Position numbers and translations under genes: made by a program
Part shown: one piece after another, positions 1,075 through 13,047 of the stretch
Layout: each line of letters begins with the position of its first letter
Position numbering within the stretch: the stretch's first letter is position 1
The notes under the pieces: generated by a model
Seen by the model: only the letters and a program-made list of their open reading frames with translations
What the model was told of the DNA's origin: nothing
The model's database searches: none
Assembly (NCBI GenBank): GCA_002449915.1
Contig: DJXY01000142.1
Span: 1-13,047, forward strand
Source: Oribacterium sp. UBA6992
GTDB taxonomy: Bacteria; Bacillota; Clostridia; Lachnospirales; Lachnospiraceae
DNA: 13,047 nt
Direction: 5' to 3'

Positions 1075-2049
1075 CTAAGCTTCATGCAGGATCCGACTGA
1101 TCTCGATCTCTCCCTCTGCATTTTTACTATATCCATACCAGACTCCGCTTTCCGGTGTCAAAAACGAAGTCGACTGCTGTTCCGCATTGCAGATTTCACT
1201 AAATTTTTCTGCCATTTTGTCCAATTCATCATACGAGAAATGCTGCTGATGCTCCGGAAGCGCCGATTTTGCCTTTACAGAAGCGATCCACTTGCCCATC
1301 GGTTCACAATTCGGGTGACGTCGATCACCGCCAAAGCTTCGGCCTGCTGTCTGATACATAAACAAATCCGGCTTTGCATCTCTATAAAAATATGCACGTG
1401 TTTCAAAACCCATACCGTCCGGCTGCATTTCCGAATTCCACAGCAAGATCTGAAAACCCTCATCTGTAGTAATTTTAAGATTTATCAGTTCCCTTTCATA
1501 GATCCACTTGTAGAGCTGATAAAAATCTACCTTGCCATTACTATCCTTATATAAGCTGCCGCCTGCACCATTTAGCGGTGAAACCGCTCTGCCGACATTA
1601 TGGTTTGAACGACAAGTTTCCATGGTGAAACCTGGAAAATCAAATCTGTCATGTGCCCCGGCTTCTGTAAAATAATGAGAAAAATAATCTATGTTCTGAT
1701 CCACAATTACAGAGGGAATCGTATGCTCAGGGATAATGATGTGCGCCTCCGGATAATGCTCCAGTACCGAATGCAAATCTCCTGTATGGTCAAAATGTCC
1801 ATGTGTCAGCACGATCACATCCGCTCCATGAACCCATTCTCCTGCGGATTTATCTGTGGGAGTATACTTATATTCATTATGCGGATCATTGGGATCATCG
1901 AAATACGGATCCATTACAATGGTTTTACCGTTAGGAAGCACAAATTCGTAGAAATTTACTCCATTCCAGCGAAGCCGTAAAAGAAGCTCATTATCATCCC
2001 ATTCCTTGGTCTTCATTTTCTCTCTATCTACAACATGGCTCATTTTCAT
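1075..2049 (-). CDS. MBL-fold metallo-hydrolase (UlaG-like superfamily member)
   Basis: A 324-residue probable metal-dependent hydrolase of the metallo-beta-lactamase fold, cytoplasmic (no signal peptide or membrane span). The family's HxHxDH metal site is present as HGHFDH (residues 83-88) after the strand ADVIVLTH, and MDPYFDDP near residue 46 fits the strand and loop that open the fold. H150 (in CRSNHNVGR) is a candidate third ligand and H267 or H270 (PEHQQHF) a candidate last one. The usual bridging Asp near residue 205 is not obvious; the region reads LLWNSEMQPDG, so D211 is a possibility. The start at 2049 has GAGAGGA eight bases upstream. It follows the SLC13-like permease by 41 bases on the same strand, suggesting joint expression and action on an imported compound. 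The substrate is unknown; lactonase or phosphodiesterase activity is a guess. Confidence 0.85.
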   Translation of the reverse strand: MKMSHVVDREKMKTKEWDDNELLLRLRWNGVNFYEFVLPNGKTIVMDPYFDDPNDPHNEYKYTPTDKSAGEWVHGADVIVLTHGHFDHTGDLHSVLEHYPEAHIIIPEHTIPSVIVDQNIDYFSHYFTEAGAHDRFDFPGFTMETCRSNHNVGRAVSPLNGAGGSLYKDSNGKVDFYQLYKWIYERELINLKITTDEGFQILLWNSEMQPDGMGFETRAYFYRDAKPDLFMYQTAGRSFGGDRRHPNCEPMGKWIASVKAKSALPEHQQHFSYDELDKMAEKFSEICNAEQQSTSFLTPESGVWYGYSKNAEGEIEISRILHEA

Positions 2050-2090
2050 AATTTAAATCCTCTCTTCTTTTACTTTAACACGACAATATC

Positions 2091-3392
2091 TCAAAATGCC
2101 GGTATAAACGTCATGGTACATACAACTGAAATCACACAAATGATCAGCGAAGGCAGCCATCCCATCTTCAGCAGATCGCCCTGATCATAGCCTCCGGCTC
2201 CCATCATCAACGGTACGGTCGAAGTAGCGCTGGGAGTGAGGAACGCTGTAAGGCATGCTGCATTCAAAAGAACCAGTGGTCCGACCGGATTACAGCCCAA
2301 AGATTTGCAGGTCAGCACTACAATAGGAACAAAAATATTCATGACGCTCTGATTTTGCATGAATTGTGTCAAAATAAATGGTATTACAAAGAAAGCAGCT
2401 CCAATAATATAGCTATTTTTAGTATCGCCAAGAGAAATTGCTACCGCATTTCCGATGACATCTCCAAGTCCGCAGTTAACCATAGCTCCACCAACACTCA
2501 ATGCTGCTACAAGCATAAGGATGATCATAAAGGGGACAGATGCCGTCGCTTCTTTAGGTTTCAGAACTCCGGTAACGACTTCCAGCGCAGCACCAGTCAT
2601 GGCGATCTGCCAGTTTGCTACTCCAAGCTGCTTGGAAAAAACAAGTCCAAGTGTGGTGATTGCAAATAGAAAATATCCGAGAAACTCCTGCAATGGAGGA
2701 AGCGGCTCTTTAGCCGATTGTGCCTTGCCACCGCCCATCTCTAAGGGTATTGTCGGACTCGCAGGCGCAAGTTTCGGAGCAATAATAGTTGCATAAATTA
2801 TGATGACAATAGCCGACAAAATCCTGCCTTTAAAAGGATCCAGCAAAGACATGGAATACTCTGTATAACCATAGCTCTCAAGGTATGCATTTTGCTGTGC
2901 AAACATAGTAGCACCAGTTCCAAGTGGTAAAACTCCGCATGTACCCACAGCTACAATACCTAATGAAAACATGGCCTTAGAAGGACTGACCCCGGCTGCC
3001 TCACAAGATGCTGCGAGAAGAGGCGCCATGATGGTAAACACTGCTACAGGACTAGGGATCAAGTTGCAAAGCACAAAGGTAATGAGCAAATACCCTGCCA
3101 GCATATTTGTAAATTTTCCCCCGGCAATTTTAATGATCAAATGTGACAGCTTTGACACCGCCTGCGTACGGTTAAAACCAGCTGCCACCACAAACATGCC
3201 TGTAATCAGCAGCACATTGGCATTGGAAAAATTAGCAAGAACTGCCTTTGGTTCTACCAAGCCAGAAAAAGATGTCAGTATAATTGCACATAGTGCAACC
3301 ACACCATTGGTAGTGTGAAGCCGTTTTGCCAGAACATAACCGCCGATCAAAAAGACAAACAGCCCCAGACATAAATACATTTGCGTAGTCAT
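2091..3392 (-). CDS. SLC13/DASS-like anion permease
   Basis: A 433-residue membrane transporter with about 11-12 hydrophobic segments, of the ion-transporter/SLC13 superfamily (di- and tricarboxylate, sulfate and similar anions, usually Na+- or H+-coupled). Two inverted structural halves are visible. Each has the re-entrant loop signature: CNLIPSPVAVFTIMAPL (residues 109-125) in the first and LTPSATSTVPLMM (385-397) in the second, corresponding to the S-N-T/S-A-T substrate and cation motifs of VcINDY-type proteins. A hydrophilic loop (about 208-235) separates the halves. Length fits the compact bacterial members. GGGAGGT lies seven bases before the ATG. It is followed by the MBL hydrolase 41 bases downstream and preceded by a LysR gene 173 bases upstream, so it is probably induced by that regulator. 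The exact substrate cannot be read from sequence. Confidence 0.88.
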   Translation of the reverse strand: MTTQMYLCLGLFVFLIGGYVLAKRLHTTNGVVALCAIILTSFSGLVEPKAVLANFSNANVLLITGMFVVAAGFNRTQAVSKLSHLIIKIAGGKFTNMLAGYLLITFVLCNLIPSPVAVFTIMAPLLAASCEAAGVSPSKAMFSLGIVAVGTCGVLPLGTGATMFAQQNAYLESYGYTEYSMSLLDPFKGRILSAIVIIIYATIIAPKLAPASPTIPLEMGGGKAQSAKEPLPPLQEFLGYFLFAITTLGLVFSKQLGVANWQIAMTGAALEVVTGVLKPKEATASVPFMIILMLVAALSVGGAMVNCGLGDVIGNAVAISLGDTKNSYIIGAAFFVIPFILTQFMQNQSVMNIFVPIVVLTCKSLGCNPVGPLVLLNAACLTAFLTPSATSTVPLMMGAGGYDQGDLLKMGWLPSLIICVISVVCTMTFIPAF

Positions 3393-3565: not shown

Positions 3566-4492
3566 TCACATAATCGTCCAGATACACTGGGTCAGACAGT
3601 TTCTTAATGCTTCATACCCCTCTGTCTTTTCAAATCCATTTCTGCATACCAGATATTTCCACTGCTCAATGTCATCTTTGGGATCCAGGCGCACAAACCT
3701 GCCTGAATCCGCACAGGAATATAGCAGATCGCTTCCCGTAGCAGTAAAAACATAGTTTCCTTCTCCCTCATCAGCAAGATGCATGCGCTGGTACATGTTA
3801 TCCTCGAGAATCATCGTTACATCACAATTAAATTTTTCACATAGTAAACGGATATTGTTATAACTTGCCGATCCCTCACGATTGGCAATGACCGGCTCCT
3901 GGATCAGATCTTTCATGCAAACCACTGGAATATTGTATTCAGAAACCTGATATGTTTTTGAGAGAAGCGCACTTTGTTTTGATAGATAAATACTGGTAAA
4001 AGCTCTGGAGCTTTTTTCATAATGGAGTCCCTGCTTAAAACGTGTAACACTAAGGCACGCAACATCTATTTCTCCCCGCATGACATCTTCATGCAGCCTT
4101 CTGCTGGAGGCAGAACGAATGTCTATCATATATCCTGCACCGTTTTTGTAAAACCATTGCAATATTTTGCTGGAAATTGCAATCGCCTGCTGAGGTGCCA
4201 ATCCAAACAAAATTCTCTTCTCATCTCTCTGGCGGCGTCGCTCAAGCTGTGCAAGGAATGCATTATGCACGAGCAGTATCTCCTTGGCCATATTGAGATA
4301 TAGCTCTCCAGCTTCTGTGACTTCAGACTGCTTCCCCTTACTTCTGTCAAATAGAGATATATGATATTCCGCTTCAACCTTACGTATTGTACGTGATAAC
4401 GCAGGCTGCGCTATATGAAGCTGTTCTGCAGCCTTATTAATGCTGCCACATTCAACAACAGCAGCAATACGCCTGATATCCTCTATATCCAT
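3566..4492 (-). CDS. LysR-type transcriptional regulator
   Basis: A 308-residue DNA-binding regulator of the LysR family, normal in length. The N-terminal winged helix-turn-helix is clear: the recognition region reads SINKAAEQLHIAQPALSRTI (residues 17-36), followed by the wing IRKVEAEYHISLFDRSKGK and the linker helix to about residue 90. The rest is the usual two-lobed periplasmic-binding-like effector domain, with the RILFGLAPQQA strand opening it near residue 93. The start at 4492 has AGGTGA seven bases upstream. It is transcribed in the same direction as the permease-hydrolase pair, an arrangement less common than the divergent one. The T-N11-A repeat in the 173-base gap makes that pair its likely target. 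The effector is probably the permease's substrate or a derivative, but that is inference. The 56-base gap upstream has a weak CGTAA/TTACG dyad (4517-4545) that might serve autoregulation. Confidence 0.92.
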   Translation of the reverse strand: MDIEDIRRIAAVVECGSINKAAEQLHIAQPALSRTIRKVEAEYHISLFDRSKGKQSEVTEAGELYLNMAKEILLVHNAFLAQLERRRQRDEKRILFGLAPQQAIAISSKILQWFYKNGAGYMIDIRSASSRRLHEDVMRGEIDVACLSVTRFKQGLHYEKSSRAFTSIYLSKQSALLSKTYQVSEYNIPVVCMKDLIQEPVIANREGSASYNNIRLLCEKFNCDVTMILEDNMYQRMHLADEGEGNYVFTATGSDLLYSCADSGRFVRLDPKDDIEQWKYLVCRNGFEKTEGYEALRNCLTQCIWTIM

Positions 4493-4770: not shown

Positions 4771-5076
4771 TCAATCTTTTTCATAGATCGTCACTCCGTC
4801 TTTCTGAATCTCCTTACGCAGATCATCCGAAACCATCTGATCCATATCAATCAGATCAAAAGACAAAAGACTCCAGGTTTTTTCCTGTATGTCATCATAA
4901 AACCGGTCAAAATCCCCACCATAAACCGCAAGATCAATATCACTCCGAGCCGTGTTGGTTCCTCTTGCTCTTGATCCAAACAGAACAAGCTTTTTTACAG
5001 ACGCAGCCTCTGCAAAGCGTAATATATCCCGCATAGCTCTCCCGGGAATCATACTTTCCTTGAATTGTTTAGTCAT
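4771..5076 (-). CDS. MNT-type nucleotidyltransferase, MntA-like antitoxin (second module)
   Basis: A 101-residue minimal nucleotidyltransferase of the MNT (HI0073/MntA) class. The signature G-S-x10-D-x-D is complete: FGSRARG (residues 33-39) then SDIDLAV, with GS at 34-35 and metal-binding D46 and D48; the third Asp is likely D74 in LLSFDLIDMD. Characterised members of this class add AMP to the tyrosine of the partner HEPN toxin's R-x4-H-x-Y motif and so silence it. Here the partner directly downstream is truncated, so this antitoxin is either orphaned or acts on the intact HepT next door. It is clearly paralogous to the MNT at 5595-5933 over its whole length, ending DGVTIYEKD against DGVLIYGEI. 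A GTG at 5085 is in frame, but the Shine-Dalgarno spacing favours the ATG at 5076. Confidence 0.88.
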   Translation of the reverse strand: MTKQFKESMIPGRAMRDILRFAEAASVKKLVLFGSRARGTNTARSDIDLAVYGGDFDRFYDDIQEKTWSLLSFDLIDMDQMVSDDLRKEIQKDGVTIYEKD

Positions 5077-5080
5077 AACT

Positions 5081-5088
5081 CTCACCCC
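5081..5088 (-). promoter_or_regulatory. Ribosome binding site fixing the second MNT start
   Basis: Minus-strand GGGGTGAG lies four to seven bases before the ATG at 5074-5076. The alternative upstream GTG (5083-5085) falls inside this site itself, which argues against its use. Confidence 0.6.
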
Positions 5089-5203: not shown

Positions 5204-5608
5204 TTATAAGTTTTCCAGACTATCTCCATAACGTTCCAGAAGCTTTTCTTCCAGCTTGTTAAATTCCGGAATATATTTACTGATGATTTTTTCAACCAAC
5301 TGGACTGCCGCGTTTTCATCATAGATATGTGCGGTCTTATTACGTTCCTCCAGCATTTCCAACCAGACCGACTCCGTCAGAAAATCATAGTATTGATACG
5401 CAGTTTTGATAATCTGTCTCGGCGAACCTGAAGCCGCCTCAACACTCCCCTCGTATTTCAGTAGTTCCTTTAGAAGTTTCCAGGACAGTTCAAACTGAAT
5501 CATAAACTTATCGATGATTCCACTGACAATAAACGTATTCCCCAGATCCTCACCTTCCGATGTCCTTAGTACTTGCAAATTATTTTTAAAATTTTTAAAT
5601 TTCTCCAT
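5204..5608 (-). CDS. hepT: HepT-like HEPN toxin (nucleotidyltransferase substrate-binding protein family)
   Basis: A 134-residue, full-length, all-alpha HI0074/HepT-family protein. The hallmark R-x4-H-x-Y is R89, H94 and Y96 in ERNKTAHIYDE. In studied HepT toxins R and H form the HEPN ribonuclease site, and the Tyr is the residue AMPylated by MntA. Earlier helices carry the family pattern FELSWKLLKELLKYEG (residues 39-54), and the C-terminus is a long charged helix (VQLVEKIISKYIPEFNKLEEKLLERY). It overlaps the MNT gene by 14 bases in another frame, the classic coupled arrangement of these pairs. The start at 5608 has GGGG about ten bases upstream inside the MNT gene. It should act in the cytoplasm as an RNase toxin held inactive by its neighbour. 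The gene symbol follows the family, not direct evidence. Confidence 0.88.
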   Translation of the reverse strand: MEKFKNFKNNLQVLRTSEGEDLGNTFIVSGIIDKFMIQFELSWKLLKELLKYEGSVEAASGSPRQIIKTAYQYYDFLTESVWLEMLEERNKTAHIYDENAAVQLVEKIISKYIPEFNKLEEKLLERYGDSLENL

Positions 5609-5933
5609 AGATCAGAACCCCATCTCTTGCGATCTCCTGCTTAAGCTTCTCGGAAATCTCATCATCCATATTAATAATGTCAAAAGAAAGCAATGTGCTG
5701 GTATGATTATCAATGTCATATACAAGATCATAAAAATTCCGACATCCGCAAACCGCAAGATCAATATCACTCTTTGGAAGTTCTTGTCCACGAGCACGAG
5801 AGCCAAATAGGAGAATGCTTTTGACTTCATATTTCTGCCCCAGCTCCCGCAGTTCTTCCAAAACAATTTTAGGTATATGAAATTCTTCGCCGGCCTCATG
5901 CATCAGTACATATGAATCTTCAGAATTGGTCAT
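5595..5933 (-). CDS. mntA: MNT-type nucleotidyltransferase, MntA-like antitoxin (first module)
   Basis: A 112-residue MNT-class nucleotidyltransferase. It has an N-terminal helix (PKIVLEELRELGQKYEVKS), then LLFGSRARG with GS at 44-45 and SDIDLAV with D56 and D58, giving G-S-x10-D-x-D, and a third Asp at D85 in LLSFDIINMD. This is the fold that AMPylates, and thereby neutralises, the HepT toxin encoded by the overlapping downstream gene. The frame stays open to an ATG at 6047, but those extra 38 codons show no family character. The ATG at 5933 is preceded by GGAAGGGG about ten bases away and is chosen. The gene begins 133 bases after the flippase stop with no visible terminator between, so read-through from the polysaccharide operon is possible besides a local promoter. 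Confidence 0.88.
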   Translation of the reverse strand: MTNSEDSYVLMHEAGEEFHIPKIVLEELRELGQKYEVKSILLFGSRARGQELPKSDIDLAVCGCRNFYDLVYDIDNHTSTLLSFDIINMDDEISEKLKQEIARDGVLIYGEI

Positions 5934-5964
5934 CTGCTCATTGCCCCTTCCTAAAAGCCTGAAT

Positions 5965-5992
5965 AATCTACTGGAATTTTCAAGTTTCTCAA
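5965..5992 (-). promoter_or_regulatory. Candidate sigma-A promoter for the first MNT/HEPN pair
   Basis: On the minus strand TTGAGA (5987-5992) and TAGATT (5965-5970) are separated by 16 bases, near the consensus for a housekeeping promoter. The -10 ends 31 bases before the chosen MNT start, leaving a short leader that holds the GGAAGGGG ribosome binding site. It is supported by sequence match and position only. Confidence 0.4.
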
Positions 5993-6066
5993 AAATAATA
6001 GCGCACCGCAAGGCGTATAATTTGACGTTTACCATAAGAATGCACAAACCACCAGCCCGTTTTATG

Positions 6067-7521
6067 TCACATCCACTCTCTCATTTTCCGGGCAACATCA
6101 TTTTTAATTTCGACCACCAGCGGCTCTTTTGTAAATAGCAGGAACATCGCATATCCAGCAAAAAACAGAACCGCTGAAATCACCAAGATGACAAAGGTAT
6201 GTACTCGCAGGTATTTGGTCCACACGCTAAGCAGTAGCCCTGCCATAATCGCAGCACATATCCGTTGATAATGAACACTAATCAGCGCCTTTCGGATTTC
6301 TTGTTTTAAACACCTGTACTGTACCACCAGCACGGCAAATTCCGCAACCAGCGTTCCGATTGCCGCTCCGGCAGAAGCAAATCTCGGTATACATATGGCA
6401 TTAATAATAAAATCCAGGACTGCACCAGTAATGACAGAATGCAGCAAAATATTTTCTCTCCCCAATGGCACCAGCATTTGTATACCCAGAAGGTTAGTGA
6501 TGCCAATAAACAGCACCGTCGGCATGATGATGATAAGAGGCATGACAGCACTCTCATAGGCACTTCCCGAAAGAAAGAAAATACTTTCCTTTGCAAAAGC
6601 CATGAAATACACCACCAGTGGTGAAGCCATCAAAAAAACAAAATTCAGTGCTTTACCTGTAATCTTTTTAAGATCGTCCATCATGCCATTTTCAACATAA
6701 TAGGAGGCTCTGGGCAAAAGAACACTCCCAAGTGAAGTAACAAGAGACGCCAAAATAGACTTGATTTTAATGGCAACATTGTAATAGCCAACTTCCGTAT
6801 CCATCGTCATAAAACCAAGCATCACATTATCAAGACTTGTGTATATTGTACCGGCACAGGCGATGGCAAAAAAAGTAAGGACAGGTTTAAAATGCCTTTT
6901 TAAGCAATACTTCCCCATCCACTTCATGGAGATATACTTACGTACATTAATGAAATTTAAAATATTGGAAGCGGATCCGGCAAAAATAGAAATGGCCCCA
7001 TACATGACATAGTCCTGCTGTTTATGGATCAATAGAAACATCGCGAGGATGGCTATCAATTTAAAAATCACCGAGCGTATGGTGATGTAGGTATATTGTT
7101 CGAGGGCTTTATAGAGCCATTCCATGCCGATCGCATTTAAAACGATCGTAAAGCTGATGATTACATAGAGCTCTCTGTCGCTTTGCAGCCTGGGAATGTA
7201 TTTTAACGCAATCCCCAAAGCAACATATGAAAGCACGCACATAAAAAGATTGATCATCAGCAGTTCATGTACCACTCTTGTCAGTTCTTCCTTGTCATCT
7301 CGTACCCGGGCGCATGCCCTGATTCCATACGTGGGAATGCCTAATTCTGAAACCATTACAAAATAGGAAATGAATGAAGTCGCAAACGAAATCTTCCCCA
7401 TCCCCGCCGGTAACAGGATTCTCGAAATATACGGGAAGGTAATCAGAGGAAAGAAAATGTATGATGACATCGTAAGCATCATATTCATTATGAAATTAAC
7501 TTTAAGTGATCCGCCCTTCAT
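6067..7521 (-). CDS. Wzx-type oligosaccharide flippase (polysaccharide biosynthesis protein)
   Basis: A 484-residue polytopic membrane protein of the MOP superfamily with about 14 hydrophobic segments, the expected length and topology for Wzx flippases. The N-terminus (LTMSSYIFFPLITFPYISRIL, then GMGKISFATSFISYF and ELGIPTYGIRACA) is the typical opening of these proteins. Internal landmarks such as TSLDNVMLGFMT, DTEVGYYNVAIKI and SAVMPLIIIMPTVLFIGITN also fit. It would flip lipid-linked repeat units made by the two upstream enzymes to the outer face of the membrane for the polymerase. The ATG at 7521 is preferred over the one at 7530 because AAGGA has a nine-base spacing to it but directly abuts the other. 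It follows the glycosyltransferase gene by 17 bases, so the two are co-transcribed. It is the last polysaccharide gene in the window. Confidence 0.92.
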   Translation of the reverse strand: MKGGSLKVNFIMNMMLTMSSYIFFPLITFPYISRILLPAGMGKISFATSFISYFVMVSELGIPTYGIRACARVRDDKEELTRVVHELLMINLFMCVLSYVALGIALKYIPRLQSDRELYVIISFTIVLNAIGMEWLYKALEQYTYITIRSVIFKLIAILAMFLLIHKQQDYVMYGAISIFAGSASNILNFINVRKYISMKWMGKYCLKRHFKPVLTFFAIACAGTIYTSLDNVMLGFMTMDTEVGYYNVAIKIKSILASLVTSLGSVLLPRASYYVENGMMDDLKKITGKALNFVFLMASPLVVYFMAFAKESIFFLSGSAYESAVMPLIIIMPTVLFIGITNLLGIQMLVPLGRENILLHSVITGAVLDFIINAICIPRFASAGAAIGTLVAEFAVLVVQYRCLKQEIRKALISVHYQRICAAIMAGLLLSVWTKYLRVHTFVILVISAVLFFAGYAMFLLFTKEPLVVEIKNDVARKMREWM

Positions 7522-7530
7522 TCCAAACAT

Positions 7531-7538: not shown

Positions 7539-9368
7539 TTATTTCTTCATTTCCTTTTCTGTCAGCCCAAGATACTGTCTCCACATTTTGTCGGAACTTA
7601 ACTCGGGAGCCGCCTCTCGGAATCTCTTTGCAGTTTTCCTATACTTACCCAAAATCAGCCCTGCCGATTTTAAATAGATCCCGATAAACATCACCATCTT
7701 CCGGTAATCCCTATCAGCAACGCATGCTTTTCCGCTTGTTGGTTCATAAAGCACGACTTTTTTATGCCGGAAACACTTAAAGGCGTCATCCGTGGCAGCA
7801 ACACTTACGACTTTTTGATCCCCCGGCAGCAGCCAGCCATTAAAGCTAATCAGCTTAATAAGATTACCGAAACGGAATGGACGGGAAGCTTTTTTCCGCA
7901 TGATCTTATCAAGATTAAAGCTCTCCATAGCCTCCGCAATCTCTCCCTTATTTGCTTCATACGTTTCATCAAGTTCCTGATACGGCCGCAGTGGAAACTG
8001 CTTCCCTACAAACCCGCGTACCTTTTGATTCAGCCTCTCAGCATCAACGTGCATAAGCCACTCCGGCCCGCGGCAAAAATCCTTAAGCCCTTGATATACT
8101 AAAAACGCCTCGGCGTATCGATAGGATATCAGCATCGAGGTAAGCGAACCCCAGATTCTGGTGAGTACCTGAAAAGATGATTTTTCCGGTTCAAATAATG
8201 CTTCCGTAATCAACATGTTCCGGAGATCATAATATCTGTTGGATCCTGCGAATGTGACATCCGCGCCATTATGCCAGACACTCACGCCGTTCAGTAAGAC
8301 CATACCTTTATCGGTATTTCGCAGTCCATAGGAAATATCATCCTGATGAATAAATACCGGTAAGGGCAGGTTATCTTTGCGCACAACTCCCATGGAATAG
8401 CAACAGCACCACCAACCCGGATACGTCATTTTGTGGGATGACTTTGCCGCATGCATAAACTCTGCAAGGCAGTTCTCAAACTTTGAGAGATCATAGAACT
8501 GATGGTCCAGATGAATCTGAAAGTCCTGATACCACTGCATACCAACCTGCATGATGGTTGGATAATCTTCTCTTAACAAAGTCCCCCCAACGATAATATC
8601 CTTCCACTCATCCTTGACCATGGACAGAAAGCCATAGAGCCTTACCAATAGATCCAGATCATAAACCGTATCATCATCCATCAGCACAATATGGCTTAGA
8701 TGAAAGGTCTCTTTTTGATCGATTGCCGCCAGCATGCCTCGCGTAAACCCACCTGCTCCGCCAACATTCGCATTAGGTAAGATGGAGATCCTGCCTTCTG
8801 CACTTTGAAGAATCGATTTTACATCATCCCGTTCCAGCAAGGTATTTCCATTATCTACAACAAAGACATAAACATGGCCCGCCGCTTCTGTTCCTGCCTC
8901 TAAAAAGCGGATCATCCGCTGCAGGTTCTGGATAATATATTTTTCTCTTTTGAATGTGCAGATATCCACTGCCAGATTGACCGGACGTACGGACGAAGCG
9001 TTTCCTTCAAACCATCCGCTTAATGTCCGTTCCTCATCGGATACTCCCGGGTCCTCTTTAAGTGAAAACCAGAAGACTCCATGATCATAGCTTGCGTAAG
9101 GATATTCCAGGTCATACTCTTTTAAGATTTCAGAATCCAGTATACTCTCCGAGAGAACCTCTTTGTCATGCATCAGACGCACAGACTGGTAGCCCTTTAC
9201 GTAAAGCTGCAGGCTCAGGGATGTCAGTTCCGTGTAAACCTTCCGTTTTTCTATTTCAAAAAGGTTAAAATATCCATTTACATCCACCCACTGATCGTTC
9301 TTATGATAATAAAGTGATGGTTCAGAACAGATCGCACTGTCCGGCATCATTATGCTTTGCAGTCTCAT
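7539..9368 (-). CDS. GlfT2-like galactofuranosyltransferase (GT2 family)
   Basis: A 609-residue glycosyltransferase whose order of motifs follows mycobacterial GlfT2. It has an N-terminal beta-rich domain (to about residue 125), then the GT-A domain starting VNLAVDICTFKRE (130-142). NANVGGAGGFTRG (199-211) follows, then the metal-binding MDDDT with D231-D233, the acceptor-site pair W319-W320 in GWWCCCYSM, D343-D344 in HQDDISYGLR (catalytic base region) and H366 in SVWH. A helical C-terminal domain completes it. Known relatives transfer galactofuranose from UDP-Galf to a lipid-linked glycan on the cytoplasmic face. All key residues are present, so it should be active, but donor specificity is inferred. 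The start is the first ATG after an in-frame stop; AAGGGG lies rather far (13 bases) upstream. It sits between the initiating sugar transferase and the flippase. Confidence 0.88.
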   Translation of the reverse strand: MRLQSIMMPDSAICSEPSLYYHKNDQWVDVNGYFNLFEIEKRKVYTELTSLSLQLYVKGYQSVRLMHDKEVLSESILDSEILKEYDLEYPYASYDHGVFWFSLKEDPGVSDEERTLSGWFEGNASSVRPVNLAVDICTFKREKYIIQNLQRMIRFLEAGTEAAGHVYVFVVDNGNTLLERDDVKSILQSAEGRISILPNANVGGAGGFTRGMLAAIDQKETFHLSHIVLMDDDTVYDLDLLVRLYGFLSMVKDEWKDIIVGGTLLREDYPTIMQVGMQWYQDFQIHLDHQFYDLSKFENCLAEFMHAAKSSHKMTYPGWWCCCYSMGVVRKDNLPLPVFIHQDDISYGLRNTDKGMVLLNGVSVWHNGADVTFAGSNRYYDLRNMLITEALFEPEKSSFQVLTRIWGSLTSMLISYRYAEAFLVYQGLKDFCRGPEWLMHVDAERLNQKVRGFVGKQFPLRPYQELDETYEANKGEIAEAMESFNLDKIMRKKASRPFRFGNLIKLISFNGWLLPGDQKVVSVAATDDAFKCFRHKKVVLYEPTSGKACVADRDYRKMVMFIGIYLKSAGLILGKYRKTAKRFREAAPELSSDKMWRQYLGLTEKEMKK

Positions 9369-9463: not shown

Positions 9464-10939
9464 CTAGTCTGCTCCCTTGTGGGTAAATACGATCGCAACT
9501 GTTTTAAATAATATCTTGATATCAAGCCAGAGGTTCCAATTGTCAATATACTCGCAATCCAGACGTACAATTTCTTCAAAATCCTTGATGTCGGATCTTC
9601 CGCTGACCTGCCACATCCCTGTGATTCCCGGCTTCATGCTGAGACGCCGTTTATGGTAATTGGAATACTCTTTGAATTCTCCGACCGTAGGCGGGCGCGT
9701 ACCTACTAAAGACATATCTCCCTTCAGTACATTAAAGAACTGCGGAAATTCATCAAGACTGGTTTTACGGATGAATTTGCCCACCCGGGTGATTCTCGGA
9801 TCATCCTTGATCTTAAACATAAGGCCGTGCATCTCATTCTGTTTCATAAGTTCTGCCTTGCGGGCTTCAGCGTCCTGATACATGGACCGGAACTTATACA
9901 TTTTAAACTTCCGGCCATTTTTACCGACACGCTCCTGCGCAAATATAACCGGCCCGGGAGAATCCAGCTTGATCGCTATGCCAATAAAAACAAACAGTAT
10001 CATGGCAATCAGCGACCCGACAAGACCTCCCAGAATATCCATGATTCGTTTTGCGGCTAGCCACCGCAGCTTGATCATCGGCTGCTCCATGATCATCATC
10101 GGGATAGATCCCAAATATGCCAGCCGGCACGTGGTCTTTGGCACATACTTTTTTGTCTTCCGGGCAATCCGATGCTCGAGATGCTCAATACTGGAAAGGT
10201 TGAGATGCACAGAAATGCCCATTTGTATAAAGTTTTCCACCGCTTCTGTGATCAATGGATTTTCATTATCAGGCACAATGATAAAAATTTCATCCATTGC
10301 ACTACTGCGCACCCATTCCACCAGTGAACTGGCATCTGCCACAACAGGCACATGATCAATCTCGCGTGGCTCTACGCCCTCCGTCACGGAATCTTTTGTT
10401 TCATTGACCAGCATTAATCCAACCAGCCGGCGCGACCAGTCCTTTTTTAAAAGATCTGTAATTCCTGCTGCTCTACCGCTGGTCGTGACCACACCCACCA
10501 GAGATGCCGCCGTCGTCTGATAAAAATGGTTCATAATAAACCGCTGCATAAGTCCAAGCAGAACCGCCAAAATAATAAAATGAAACAAGATTGTCAATAC
10601 AAAGTAATGCCGGGAAGCGGTAATATCATTTTTTTCAATCAACAAAATCACTGCCCAGATGCCGGAAAAATAAATGGTCGCTTTGAGGGATTTAATCGCG
10701 TATTTATATGCCGGTAGACGTTCAAAAGCATATCTGCCATCATAAAGCGCAAGAATCATGGCGATCATCTCGGCAGCCATAACCGGAAAAATTGCGCTCA
10801 CCCAGGTATTTCCTGCGAGAAACTCTTTTGTAAGCTTTGCAGCATTTTTAAGTAATCCGATAGCCAGAACACTGCTCAAAAAGGCAGATAACAAATATAG
10901 TATTGTTGTGATCGTTAACTCCAGTTTCTTTCGCTTCAT
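9464..10939 (-). CDS. Polyprenyl-phosphate sugar-1-phosphate transferase (initiating enzyme, WbaP/CpsE type)
   Basis: A 491-residue membrane enzyme that loads the first sugar phosphate onto undecaprenyl phosphate, starting each polysaccharide unit. The N-terminus has four or five membrane spans (about 11-31, 47-66, 84-101, 113-131). A Rossmann-like CoA-binding-type domain (141-285) follows, then the catalytic bacterial sugar transferase domain. This holds KRIMDILG (297-304) and a re-entrant hydrophobic helix, DSPGPVIFAQERVGKNG (326-342), YKFRSM (348-353), DDPRITRVGKFIRK, and the catalytic Asp-Glu pair D396-E397 in TSLDEFPQ. FNVLKGDMSLVGTRPP and KPGITGMWQVSGRSD (436-450) complete it. This layout is that of the large polyisoprenylphosphate hexose-1-phosphate transferases. 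GAGG lies about nine bases before the ATG. It starts 24 bases after the polymerase-like gene ends and is followed 95 bases later by the GlfT2-like gene. The sugar (galactose, glucose or another) cannot be told. Confidence 0.93.
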   Translation of the reverse strand: MKRKKLELTITTILYLLSAFLSSVLAIGLLKNAAKLTKEFLAGNTWVSAIFPVMAAEMIAMILALYDGRYAFERLPAYKYAIKSLKATIYFSGIWAVILLIEKNDITASRHYFVLTILFHFIILAVLLGLMQRFIMNHFYQTTAASLVGVVTTSGRAAGITDLLKKDWSRRLVGLMLVNETKDSVTEGVEPREIDHVPVVADASSLVEWVRSSAMDEIFIIVPDNENPLITEAVENFIQMGISVHLNLSSIEHLEHRIARKTKKYVPKTTCRLAYLGSIPMMIMEQPMIKLRWLAAKRIMDILGGLVGSLIAMILFVFIGIAIKLDSPGPVIFAQERVGKNGRKFKMYKFRSMYQDAEARKAELMKQNEMHGLMFKIKDDPRITRVGKFIRKTSLDEFPQFFNVLKGDMSLVGTRPPTVGEFKEYSNYHKRRLSMKPGITGMWQVSGRSDIKDFEEIVRLDCEYIDNWNLWLDIKILFKTVAIVFTHKGAD

Positions 10940-10963: not shown

Positions 10964-13047
10964 TCATGCAACAATCTGCCCGGCAGCATCATAATGCGTT
11001 TCAGAAATCACCTGATGATTGGCATCGTATTTCCTGACAATATGCGCAAAGCCGTTGATATTATTTACCGGTTGACCATCCGTATCATAGTATTTCTCAT
11101 CAATGACATTCCCGTTATCATCATATTGACGGTCAATTGCAGAAATACCATCCAGATTCCGAATGGGCTTATGATCCGTACCGAAATATTCATCCCGGAT
11201 GACCTGGTGCCGCTCATTAAATGTACGGTGAATTTCTGCGTATCCGCTTGTATTCATGACAAGCTGATTATCCTTATCATAATAACGTATTACATTAATA
11301 TTGCCATTATGATCATATTCGTATTCACACGCGGCATATCCATCCGAGGTCATTGTTTTATTGCCATCCAGATCATAATACTCTTCTCTTACCTTCTGGC
11401 GATATTTATTTAGGAAAATATGCGTATCCAAATCGACCTTACGTGTATATGAGATACTGTTAATCCTAAGTGTCCGTCCCGAATCCGCAATAGCAAGGAA
11501 CTCGATATCCTGATATCCTCCTGACCAGAAATCAATCGTCGCTGTATAATGACCATTGGCATCAAACTGACTTCGGCTTACCGGGACTTCAGCACACTGT
11601 ATTTCTCCATTATACGCAGTTACTCTCAGCAGCGCCACCTCATAGTCGTCCGTATATGCTTGATCCGGATCGGAAATCGCAATATCATAGGTAACCGTGT
11701 ACATTCCTTCATAAAGATTAACGTACGGACCATGAAGCATGGAATGCTGCGCCCCATCCAGCATAATGGAACCTGCCGCTGTCTCAGGCAGCTGATTTAA
11801 TCTGGCCTGTTCCGCAAGATCCACCGGATAAACCGCAGGGCAATATCCGGTGAAATGATATCCCTCATTTTGCAGCGCAGTAATTACCCCTCTGTCATTG
11901 GTATATATTGCATGTTTATCTGAAATGGGAGTATATAGAAATCCGGTCTTACTAAATACTTTGGAATCAAAATCCCGTGCCATAACCACCGTTGTATTCT
12001 GACCATGCGCAAGTTCCTCACCGCTAAAGACCGATCTATGGATCCCGGGAAATCTGCGGTGATAAACTTCCGGGAAGTCCGTTACATACAGATTTCCTGT
12101 TTTTGCTTTCAAAATAGCTTCAATTGACTCAGCGTCCTCTGCAAGCAGGTCCTGCTGCTGCAGCTCTGCCTGATGAATCACGTAATTTGCGGCTGCAATC
12201 GTAATCGTATATATCAGTACCACGGAAACAACGATAACCGGGATCCCCTTTAGTTTTAAATCAAGATCTTTTACAGCACCAGCCTCGTTGTTTGCGCATT
12301 TTTTGAGCGCAGCATGATAACAGCACCACATAAGCGCCGCCAGTGTCATGAGCATCATGAGGACGAACGCGAATACCACTGCTTCACGTTTCCCGTCTCC
12401 GGTCAGATGCACTGCCTGCACCAAGGTGCGCATCCAGTCAAGAGCGGTCCGAAAAACAAGGCCCATCACGGTCAGCGGAAGCAGGGCAGCAAATTTTGGC
12501 AGCATCTGTTGTATGCCTGCAGAAGCCGCATTGCTACAGACCTTATCCTCAGTCTGAGCGCCCGTGATTTCTGCTGCTTTGGCCTTATACACATGCATAT
12601 GAGCAAAGGGCATAATCAGCAGAATATTGTAATGAACCTCCATAAAATGATGCTCGGAAATAGAATGAAAGGCAATGATTGCCATAACTGCCGCAAGCCT
12701 GTAATTGCCGCACTTGATCGCCTTTTGCGTCATCCAGCACCAGAGTACACAAATACAAATCAGCAGTACCCAGCCGTATCGCACAAGGATCAGCATGTAA
12801 GTGCTATCAATAAAATTATAGTTCAGCGCGGAATATACACTGGAGCCTGCACCAATCATTTCAAATGGTACGCCAAACGGATGCAGTCCATGCTGTGTAA
12901 CCGCATCAGATGCAAGCTGTACACGATTGGACAATAATTCATTGATCCGGTACGCAAAGCCATAATTTTTTTGTAACGCGTAGGTAAGCGTCATCATTCC
13001 TACGGCTGATACAGGAAACATGATAACATAAAGGAAATGTACCGTAT
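10964..13047 (-). CDS. O-antigen polymerase/ligase-like membrane protein with extracytoplasmic repeat tail (partial)
   Basis: The frame is open to the right edge, so the 5' part lies outside the window; numbering here starts at the Met at 13021. The first 150 or so residues have the look of the C-terminal half of Wzy/WaaL-type proteins. They include a large polar loop (20-70, with HPFGVPFEMIGAG and NFIDSTYMLILVRYG) and then spans with FHSISEHHFMEVHYN (118-132). Further spans lie near 175-192, 213-233 and 258-281. The last span follows a Lys-rich segment, so by the positive-inside rule everything after residue 285 is outside the membrane. That tail is an unrecognised mixed domain (300-415), a beta-rich domain (about 420-530, with GPYVNLYEGMYTVTYD and a jelly-roll feel) and 32-residue YD-like repeats (548-685). 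It would polymerise or ligate repeat units at the outer face. The fusion is unusual; assignment of the membrane part is fairly sure, but polymerase versus ligase is open. Confidence 0.8.
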   Translation of the reverse strand, partial: TVHFLYVIMFPVSAVGMMTLTYALQKNYGFAYRINELLSNRVQLASDAVTQHGLHPFGVPFEMIGAGSSVYSALNYNFIDSTYMLILVRYGWVLLICICVLWCWMTQKAIKCGNYRLAAVMAIIAFHSISEHHFMEVHYNILLIMPFAHMHVYKAKAAEITGAQTEDKVCSNAASAGIQQMLPKFAALLPLTVMGLVFRTALDWMRTLVQAVHLTGDGKREAVVFAFVLMMLMTLAALMWCCYHAALKKCANNEAGAVKDLDLKLKGIPVIVVSVVLIYTITIAAANYVIHQAELQQQDLLAEDAESIEAILKAKTGNLYVTDFPEVYHRRFPGIHRSVFSGEELAHGQNTTVVMARDFDSKVFSKTGFLYTPISDKHAIYTNDRGVITALQNEGYHFTGYCPAVYPVDLAEQARLNQLPETAAGSIMLDGAQHSMLHGPYVNLYEGMYTVTYDIAISDPDQAYTDDYEVALLRVTAYNGEIQCAEVPVSRSQFDANGHYTATIDFWSGGYQDIEFLAIADSGRTLRINSISYTRKVDLDTHIFLNKYRQKVREEYYDLDGNKTMTSDGYAACEYEYDHNGNINVIRYYDKDNQLVMNTSGYAEIHRTFNERHQVIRDEYFGTDHKPIRNLDGISAIDRQYDDNGNVIDEKYYDTDGQPVNNINGFAHIVRKYDANHQVISETHYDAAGQIVA
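10967..11380 (-). repeat. Tandem 96-base (32-residue) YD/RHS-like repeats
   Basis: Four complete units of exactly 32 residues, 11380-11285, 11284-11189, 11188-11093 and 11092-10997, are followed by a ten-residue fifth (10996-10967) cut off by the stop codon. The unit has the form YYDxDGxxxxNxxGYAxxxRxYDxNxxVixE. Aromatic-Asp pairs and Gly/Asn turns are conserved while codons have diverged, so the array is old rather than freshly expanded. It resembles the YD repeats of RHS and wall-associated proteins, which often bind carbohydrate. Confidence 0.85.

Follow-up and report, generated by a model that had tools for sequence, protein, structure and literature searches.

A Wzy/WaaL-type membrane core joined in one gene to a predicted outer jelly roll and YD/RHS-type repeats in Lachnospiraceae

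It is poorly understood how Gram-positive bacteria hold on to a polysaccharide as it grows, control its length and get it through the wall. Wzy polymerases are hard to study because nearly the whole enzyme lies inside the membrane. A Wzy-type enzyme with a large, confidently predicted soluble outer domain would offer an experimental handle, since such a domain can be produced by itself, assayed for binding and deleted from the gene. The DNA analyzed here (the window: 13,047 nucleotides of Oribacterium sp. UBA6992, assembly GCA_002449915.1, contig DJXY01000142.1) ends in a gene that a preliminary description had read as a polymerase- or ligase-like membrane protein running into an outer tail of YD repeats. 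This locus raises the question of whether one gene truly encodes both parts, what the parts are, and what such a tail could do for a polymerase.

One gene encodes core and tail

The reverse strand of the window holds a stop-free frame of 693 residues (10964-13045), the C-terminal portion of a longer fused polymerase gene (Table 1). Contig C27, 13,790 bases long, has a 58-base run of N directly beyond the window end, past which the frame continues for 228 further codons up to an ATG in the contig’s final bases, giving 941 codons with the N run included. A gap-free copy of 928 amino acids, P0001, is recorded on two contigs, the longer of 21,393 bases, and supplies the N-terminal part missing from the window. 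It is identical to the C27 frame at 228 of 228 residues before and 693 of 693 residues after the N run, has zero residues at the position of the run itself, and starts 7 residues upstream of the ATG of the C27 frame. The last predicted helix ends at about P0001 525–531, and one frame does run some 400 residues past the last membrane span, as first described.

Could two genes instead have been fused by a frameshift, a mis-assembly or the N run? The run does break the frame just outside the window and, among 14 loci from named genomes, the frame of L029 breaks after the extra membrane helices, before the alpha/beta part, that of L031 stops inside the core, and L028 is cut by a contig end. The remaining 11 loci carry core and tail in a single frame, nine of them with repeats (L018–L025, L027) and two without (L026, L030). 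The 14 loci come from Butyrivibrio sp. AE2015, Lachnospiraceae C6A11 and YSB2008, whose records carry no metagenome-assembly label and which are among those with a single frame, and from metagenome assemblies, mostly of rumen by their titles, with one labelled Chloroflexi; the RUG-series assemblies we take to be of rumen origin. These loci, the identical uninterrupted copy on a longer contig and a single confident AlphaFold2 model of the protein (pLDDT 91.7, pTM 0.90) reduce an artefact to a negligible probability: the core–tail join is real and lies within one gene. The L029 break (frames 1387–3015 and 2976–3358) may be a sequencing error or real.

Table 1 Features of the fused gene and its neighbors, in window coordinates
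Feature	Position	Strand	Basis or remark
Fused polymerase gene, C-terminal 693 codons and stop	10964..13045	-	Continues on contig C27 to base 13789
Wzy/WaaL-type membrane core, C-terminal part	12587..13045	-	P0001 residues 236-388
Large outer loop with conserved R276, G300, D315 (GN1-type motif R-X23-G-X-G)	12803..12970	-	Alignments; motif definition PMC12502699
E366-H367-H368 motif, predicted outer face	12647..12655	-	Nearly invariant across the tailed family
Three extra membrane helices (P0001 408-446, 454-487, 502-531)	12158..12529	-	AlphaFold2 model, loop charges
Small alpha/beta module (P0001 545-637)	11840..12118	-	AlphaFold2 model
Carbohydrate-binding-module-type jelly roll (P0001 638-772)	11435..11839	-	Structural comparison
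About four and a half 32-residue repeats of YD/RHS type, with alternation at a 64-residue period	10967..11395	-	Structure, self-similarity
Polyprenyl glycosylphosphotransferase (priming transferase), 24 bases downstream	9464..10939	-	PF02397; TIGR03025 above cut-off
Family 2 glycosyltransferase, weakly similar to galactofuranosyltransferases	7539..9368	-	PF13641, PF00535 above cut-off; GlfT2 domains below
Wzx-type flippase	6067..7530	-	PF01943, PF13440

Membrane core, gene neighbors and predicted outer tail

Structural comparison of the AlphaFold2 model gave the O-antigen ligase WaaL as the best match for the membrane core, which has the multi-helix membrane fold characteristic of the Wzy/WaaL (GT-C_B) group. 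The GN1 motif of type-B Wzy proteins, RX(11–24)GXG, is matched by R276-X23-G300-X-G302. The GN2 motif, HNX9GX(2–4)G, is only half matched, by D315-S316-X9-G326, without the HN and without the second G; three type-B Wzys lack both GN1 and GN2 (PMC12502699). Over 62 tailed relatives G300 is the sole invariant residue, and those conserved in at least 90% include R149, D159, R276, G288, G293, G302, D315, Y318, G326, R351, E366, H367 and H368; across a set of 14 tailed and tail-less relatives, R276, G300, D315, Y318 and G326 are invariant (P0001 numbering). Members of clan GT-C1 have one or two conserved Arg with a proposed role in binding the diphosphate; activation of the acceptor is ascribed to an Asp or Glu in most of the polymerase families and to His in the ligase (PMC10920833).

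Neither Pfam nor NCBIfam profiles matched the membrane core of the window protein, and the same held for the tested relatives with this core type, tail-less ones included; given the high sequence diversity of Wzy proteins, a match to a curated profile is a weak test of membership. Sub-cut-off matches on the cores of relatives (DUF5389 in P0053, DUF4131 in P0003, PRK11380 in P0035, ChrB_C and a phage holin in P0027, Pex24p in L036) were taken as chance. Searched against solved structures, a profile of nine tail-less relatives matched none up to an E value of 10, and a profile of the 62 tailed relatives matched an RHS protein, through the repeats, and two helical proteins by chance.

The gene stands in the setting of a Wzx/Wzy cluster, with flippase, priming transferase and glycosyltransferase genes beside the polymerase and all three downstream neighbors running in its direction. 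Relatives of these neighbors recur in the 14 named-genome loci, many of them on short contigs, with the priming transferase in nine, the GlfT2-like gene in three and the flippase in one; G003, a genome of the same genus, keeps the order, with the priming transferase after the fused gene. Together with the WaaL match and the GN1 motif, this setting supports the original reading of the membrane part as polymerase- or ligase-like, and the searches that might have shown it to be neither did not do so.

Farther along the window, three reverse-strand genes at 4771–5085, 5204–5608 and 5595–6047, by Pfam two small ones of nucleotidyltransferase fold and an NTase_sub_bind (PF08780) partner, are arranged like MNT/HEPN-type toxin–antitoxin pairs. 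At 2091–3392 and 3566–4492, also on the reverse strand, a CitMHS/sodium:sulfate-symporter-type transporter adjoins a LysR-type regulator.

Beyond the core, the model contains three extra membrane helices that are absent from relatives of about 410 amino acids. On a count of 15 membrane helices, assigned by hand from the model’s secondary structure with the conserved loop set outside and with the large catalytic loop and C-terminal linker omitted, the predicted inner loops carry 23.0 K+R per 117 residues compared to 7.9 per 97 in the outer loops (mean over 62 sequences). The predicted topology thus places the tail outside the membrane, with the extra helices bringing the C-terminus out; the outer-face position first proposed agrees with the loop charges, and a cytoplasmic tail, which would have spoken against it, is not what the topology predicts.

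The modeled tail begins with the alpha/beta module, for which phmmer searches of solved structures and Pfam returned chance matches only and structure-comparison lists were filled by the adjoining jelly roll. The latter, initially noted simply as a beta-rich domain, has no Pfam match and in the model adopts the jelly-roll fold of carbohydrate-binding modules (CBM6/15/35/36); across 10 aligned relatives GPY, G and Y residues are invariant, with no conserved Trp.

Repeats begin at about P0001 786 (window 11395) and comprise four full 32-residue units plus 15 residues. Self-similarity was highest at an offset of 64 and next at 32, the best offset being reached in none of 2000 shuffles. The full units are diverged, sharing 6–13 of 32 residues in pairwise comparison, and Tandem Repeats Finder reported no repeats there at the DNA level. 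For the window protein, scores fell below the cut-offs of both PF05593 (12.2 vs 22 bits) and TIGR01643 (12.8 vs 15.8 bits); structural comparison found the YD-repeat fold, at 1.9 Å over 114 residues, confirming the repeats as YD/RHS-type, and some proteins with more units exceed the PF05593 cut-off (P0009, L035, P0060).

Relatives and the number of repeats

We collected 92 proteins through three protein searches, in which candidates spanned 0.55–1.75 times the query length, so that tail-less forms were excluded. By profiles, 63 of these contain core, alpha/beta module, jelly roll and repeats, and 10 the same without repeats; seven have the tail parts and repeats with no match to the window-type core, and 12 have repeats only. 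Among the seven, P0048 (735 amino acids, three hydrophobic segments) is probably a truncated piece, four match PF04932 (P0055, P0078, P0079 and P0086, only P0078 above cut-off), P0073 has no profile match, and the last is P0080. Some members carry other modules: choline-binding repeats take the place of the YD repeats in P0054, an acyltransferase domain precedes the core in P0053, and a C-terminal ILEI-like domain scores just below cut-off in P0007 and P0027. ILEI has the FAM3/PANDER fold. In POMGnT1, a FAM3B/PANDER-like domain serves as the carbohydrate-binding stem (PMC8478517).

Ten of the 12 repeat-only proteins have one hydrophobic segment, TIR and nSTAND proteins among them. P0084, P0087 and P0088 consist of a TIR domain, one hydrophobic segment at about residues 180–212 and then at least 10 YD-type repeats, and are possibly surface-sensing TIR proteins whose repeats form an outer ectodomain; a PADLOC SAVED/TIR model additionally matches P0087. 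In P0056 and P0089 an nSTAND-type NTPase is followed by one or more hydrophobic segments and the same YD-type repeats.

Tail-less cores of about 400–440 amino acids occur in the same genus and family. The architectures therefore form a series, from core only, through core and jelly roll (about 755 amino acids), to forms with 1 to about 25 repeats added, and its presence inside one bacterial family provides a ready-made comparison. With up to two candidates scored per genome, some part of the profile was matched in 74 of 397 family genomes, with rows spanning core and tail in at least four, namely the window’s own genome (with repeats) and G360, G184 and G126 (without). Among 17 genomes of the genus, core, tail and repeats occur together in two (G000, G003), and in G014 the tail sits on another core. 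This G014 gene (L003, 1–3279, forward strand) has the same alpha/beta module, jelly roll and repeats behind a membrane part unmatched by the core profile; the next gene (from 3450) resembles the priming transferase of L007 by its first residues. Across 392 genomes of the order, scored at up to four candidates each, the tail alone has matches in at least 17, in eight of these 17 to the repeats only. Many relatives from the rumen share the arrangement, which could keep hold of the sugar chain as it grows or steer it.

In a tree of 50 cores, which sampled 25 of 62 repeat-bearing rows, tail-bearing members form one group of 36 rows (support 99/97); tail-bearing L032–L034 and P0049 fall outside it, L034 and P0049 on long branches of unsure placement. 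A single origin of the repeats is not supported, as the tree needs seven changes of the repeat-bearing label, at least four of them forced by well-supported branches.

Comparing homologues, as the preliminary description had suggested, gave repeat numbers from 0 to about 25 among 73 members (0–24 by a stricter count). That description also proposed that repeat number tunes function between strains, which the closest pairs do not bear out. At 84% identity or above over the core-to-jelly-roll part there are seven pairs, of which three are repeat-free and four are repeat-bearing with tail lengths equal within one residue, a weak test at strain level since the collection was clustered at 90% identity and could hide variation between near-identical strains. 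At 55–75% identity, the difference is about one, two or five units in some pairs and zero in others. Repeat number thus changes over evolution, with no change between close strains in evidence. Within the tail the jelly roll stays constant, and the repeats are an evolutionarily labile extension, replaceable by other known or suspected glycan-binding modules. Repeat-rich relatives also drew odd Pfam matches (malate synthase N, peptidase M66, DUF3725, LysX_preATP_grasp and others), which were read as repeat noise because no single stretch passes alone.

What the tail may do, and comparison with known systems

What is computed is a WaaL/Wzy-fold core with conserved residues on its predicted outer face and an alpha/beta module, jelly roll and repeats modeled outside the membrane. 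From this we lean, by a modest margin over even chances, towards a polymerase of a Wzx/Wzy cluster whose outer jelly roll, perhaps with the repeats, binds the growing polysaccharide. The core would join lipid-linked repeat units flipped by the neighboring Wzx, and the jelly roll, perhaps aided by the repeats, would bind the product beside the active site; such binding would keep the polysaccharide engaged, favoring processivity and acceptor capture, and would guide it off the membrane towards and into the wall. That the tail binds glycan is plausible, its ligand most likely the cell’s own glycan or the wall beside the active site; we infer the binding, the ligand and any effect on the polymer from the architecture.

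The protein could instead be a WaaL-like ligase that transfers completed polysaccharide to an acceptor in the wall or on the surface, its tail holding that acceptor or reaching into the wall. WaaL is the best structural match, a PF04932 “O-antigen ligase” core occurs in some relatives that share the tail, one relative carries choline-binding, that is cell-wall-binding, repeats, and by our own reading the L020 cluster seems to carry a second Wzy-like gene. However, the fused gene is the sole polymerase candidate found around the window, on a contig that ends just upstream, and PF04932 spans ligases and polymerases alike (PMC12502699). The acceptor-activating His of the ligase is replaced by Asp or Glu in most GT-C1 polymerases (PMC10920833), a distinction that is not decisive here, where E366, H367 and H368 are all conserved. 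Overall we consider a ligase unlikely. In L020 (Butyrivibrio sp. AE2015), the membrane protein directly after the fused gene (9474–10754, forward strand) has no Pfam or NCBIfam match and by eye resembles a tail-less Wzy-like protein.

Another reading is a Wzy polymerase with a tail that handles no polymer and acts as a passive spacer or as an adhesin-like anchor to the cell wall or surface; to our mind it is about as improbable as a ligase. Repeats of the same type do occur without a polymerase, on proteins with a single N-terminal hydrophobic segment (P0060, P0067, P0057) and after the membrane segment of the TIR and nSTAND proteins, which suggests that they serve as a general ectodomain, and their number is evolutionarily labile. 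Yet jelly roll and alpha/beta module are kept in 73 of 73 core-profile members, with or without repeats (a set biased by queries that include the tail), and this pair of domains recurs on a second polymerase type, suggesting a job tied to polymerases.

Less probable again is a built-in chain-length ruler, replacing or complementing Wzz, in which repeat number sets polymer length. The wide range of repeat numbers would suit a ruler, as would the lack of a PF02706 (Wzz) match in seven of 13 genomes, which means little because the genome of L018 gave no match though it has a Wzz-like gene. In L018 and L028 a gene of this kind stands immediately upstream of the fused one, and a third lies on a different contig of the window’s own genome with another GlfT2-like gene, all three scoring below the PF02706 cut-off; ten collected members, moreover, have no repeats at all. 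We therefore rejected a replacement for Wzz as the main reading, and the chain-length setting proposed at the outset is unlikely as a substitute for Wzz. On the contig in question (L048, contig C67 of G000), the Wzz-like gene directly follows the second GlfT2-like glycosyltransferase, read as such from its sequence, and these genes may be part of the fused gene’s polysaccharide cluster or of a different one.

Returning to a polymerase with a glycan-binding tail, a more specific version would unite catalysis and polymer handling in one polypeptide, the jelly roll clamping the nascent chain and a rod of YD repeats leading it through the wall. We hold this version only tentatively and think it more likely wrong than right. 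If it were true, repeat number would set reach or length, and the tail would be a device that had been fitted to two or more kinds of polymerase core and swapped with other glycan-binding modules. The model has about two strands per 32-residue unit, and β-strands are spaced about 0.5 nm apart; 4–25 units would by this estimate extend some 4–24 nm, at the upper end as far as a Gram-positive wall is thick.

Each part of the protein is of a known kind, and we found no description of a polymerase fused to YD/RHS repeats in the open-licence literature searched: the available part of PMC10920833 does not mention fused or additional soluble C-terminal domains, nor do those of PMC12419801 and PMC12004945 mention the fusion. 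With Wzy polymerases (CAZy clan GT-C1, GT125–GT129) and WaaL (GT121) the window protein shares the core fold, the GN1 motif, conserved Arg and acidic residues predicted to face outward, and Wzx and priming-transferase neighbors. Pneumococcal Wzy proteins have 400–477 amino acids (PMC12502699), whereas in the window protein a core without a curated-profile match is extended by three membrane helices and some 400 residues on the outer side. The C-terminal carbohydrate-binding module of Wzt, in ABC-transporter O-antigen systems, is likewise an appended module recognizing the pathway’s own glycan, but it sits on a transporter’s nucleotide-binding domain and recognizes a capped chain end (PMC3482155, PMC11127046).

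With RHS/YD-repeat proteins such as RhsA, Tse5 and Tc toxin C subunits, the tail has the β-strand repeat fold in common. It differs from this class, to which teneurins also belong, in its 32-residue units, sub-threshold profile scores, unit number of 0 to about 25 and place on a polymerase, and the window protein has no C-terminal toxin. Mycobacterial EmbC uses a lipid-monophosphate sugar donor, is not known to carry a YD-repeat extension and has a membrane core unrelated to that of the window polymerase. It is likewise a polymerizing transferase embedded in the membrane, and the hydrophilic C-terminal domain that follows has two parts, one of them lectin/CBM-like; substituting conserved Trp at two sugar sites of that domain inhibited chain extension (PMC3044687). 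By analogy, we propose that the tail described here may work as the C-terminal domain of EmbC does, on an unrelated polymerase.
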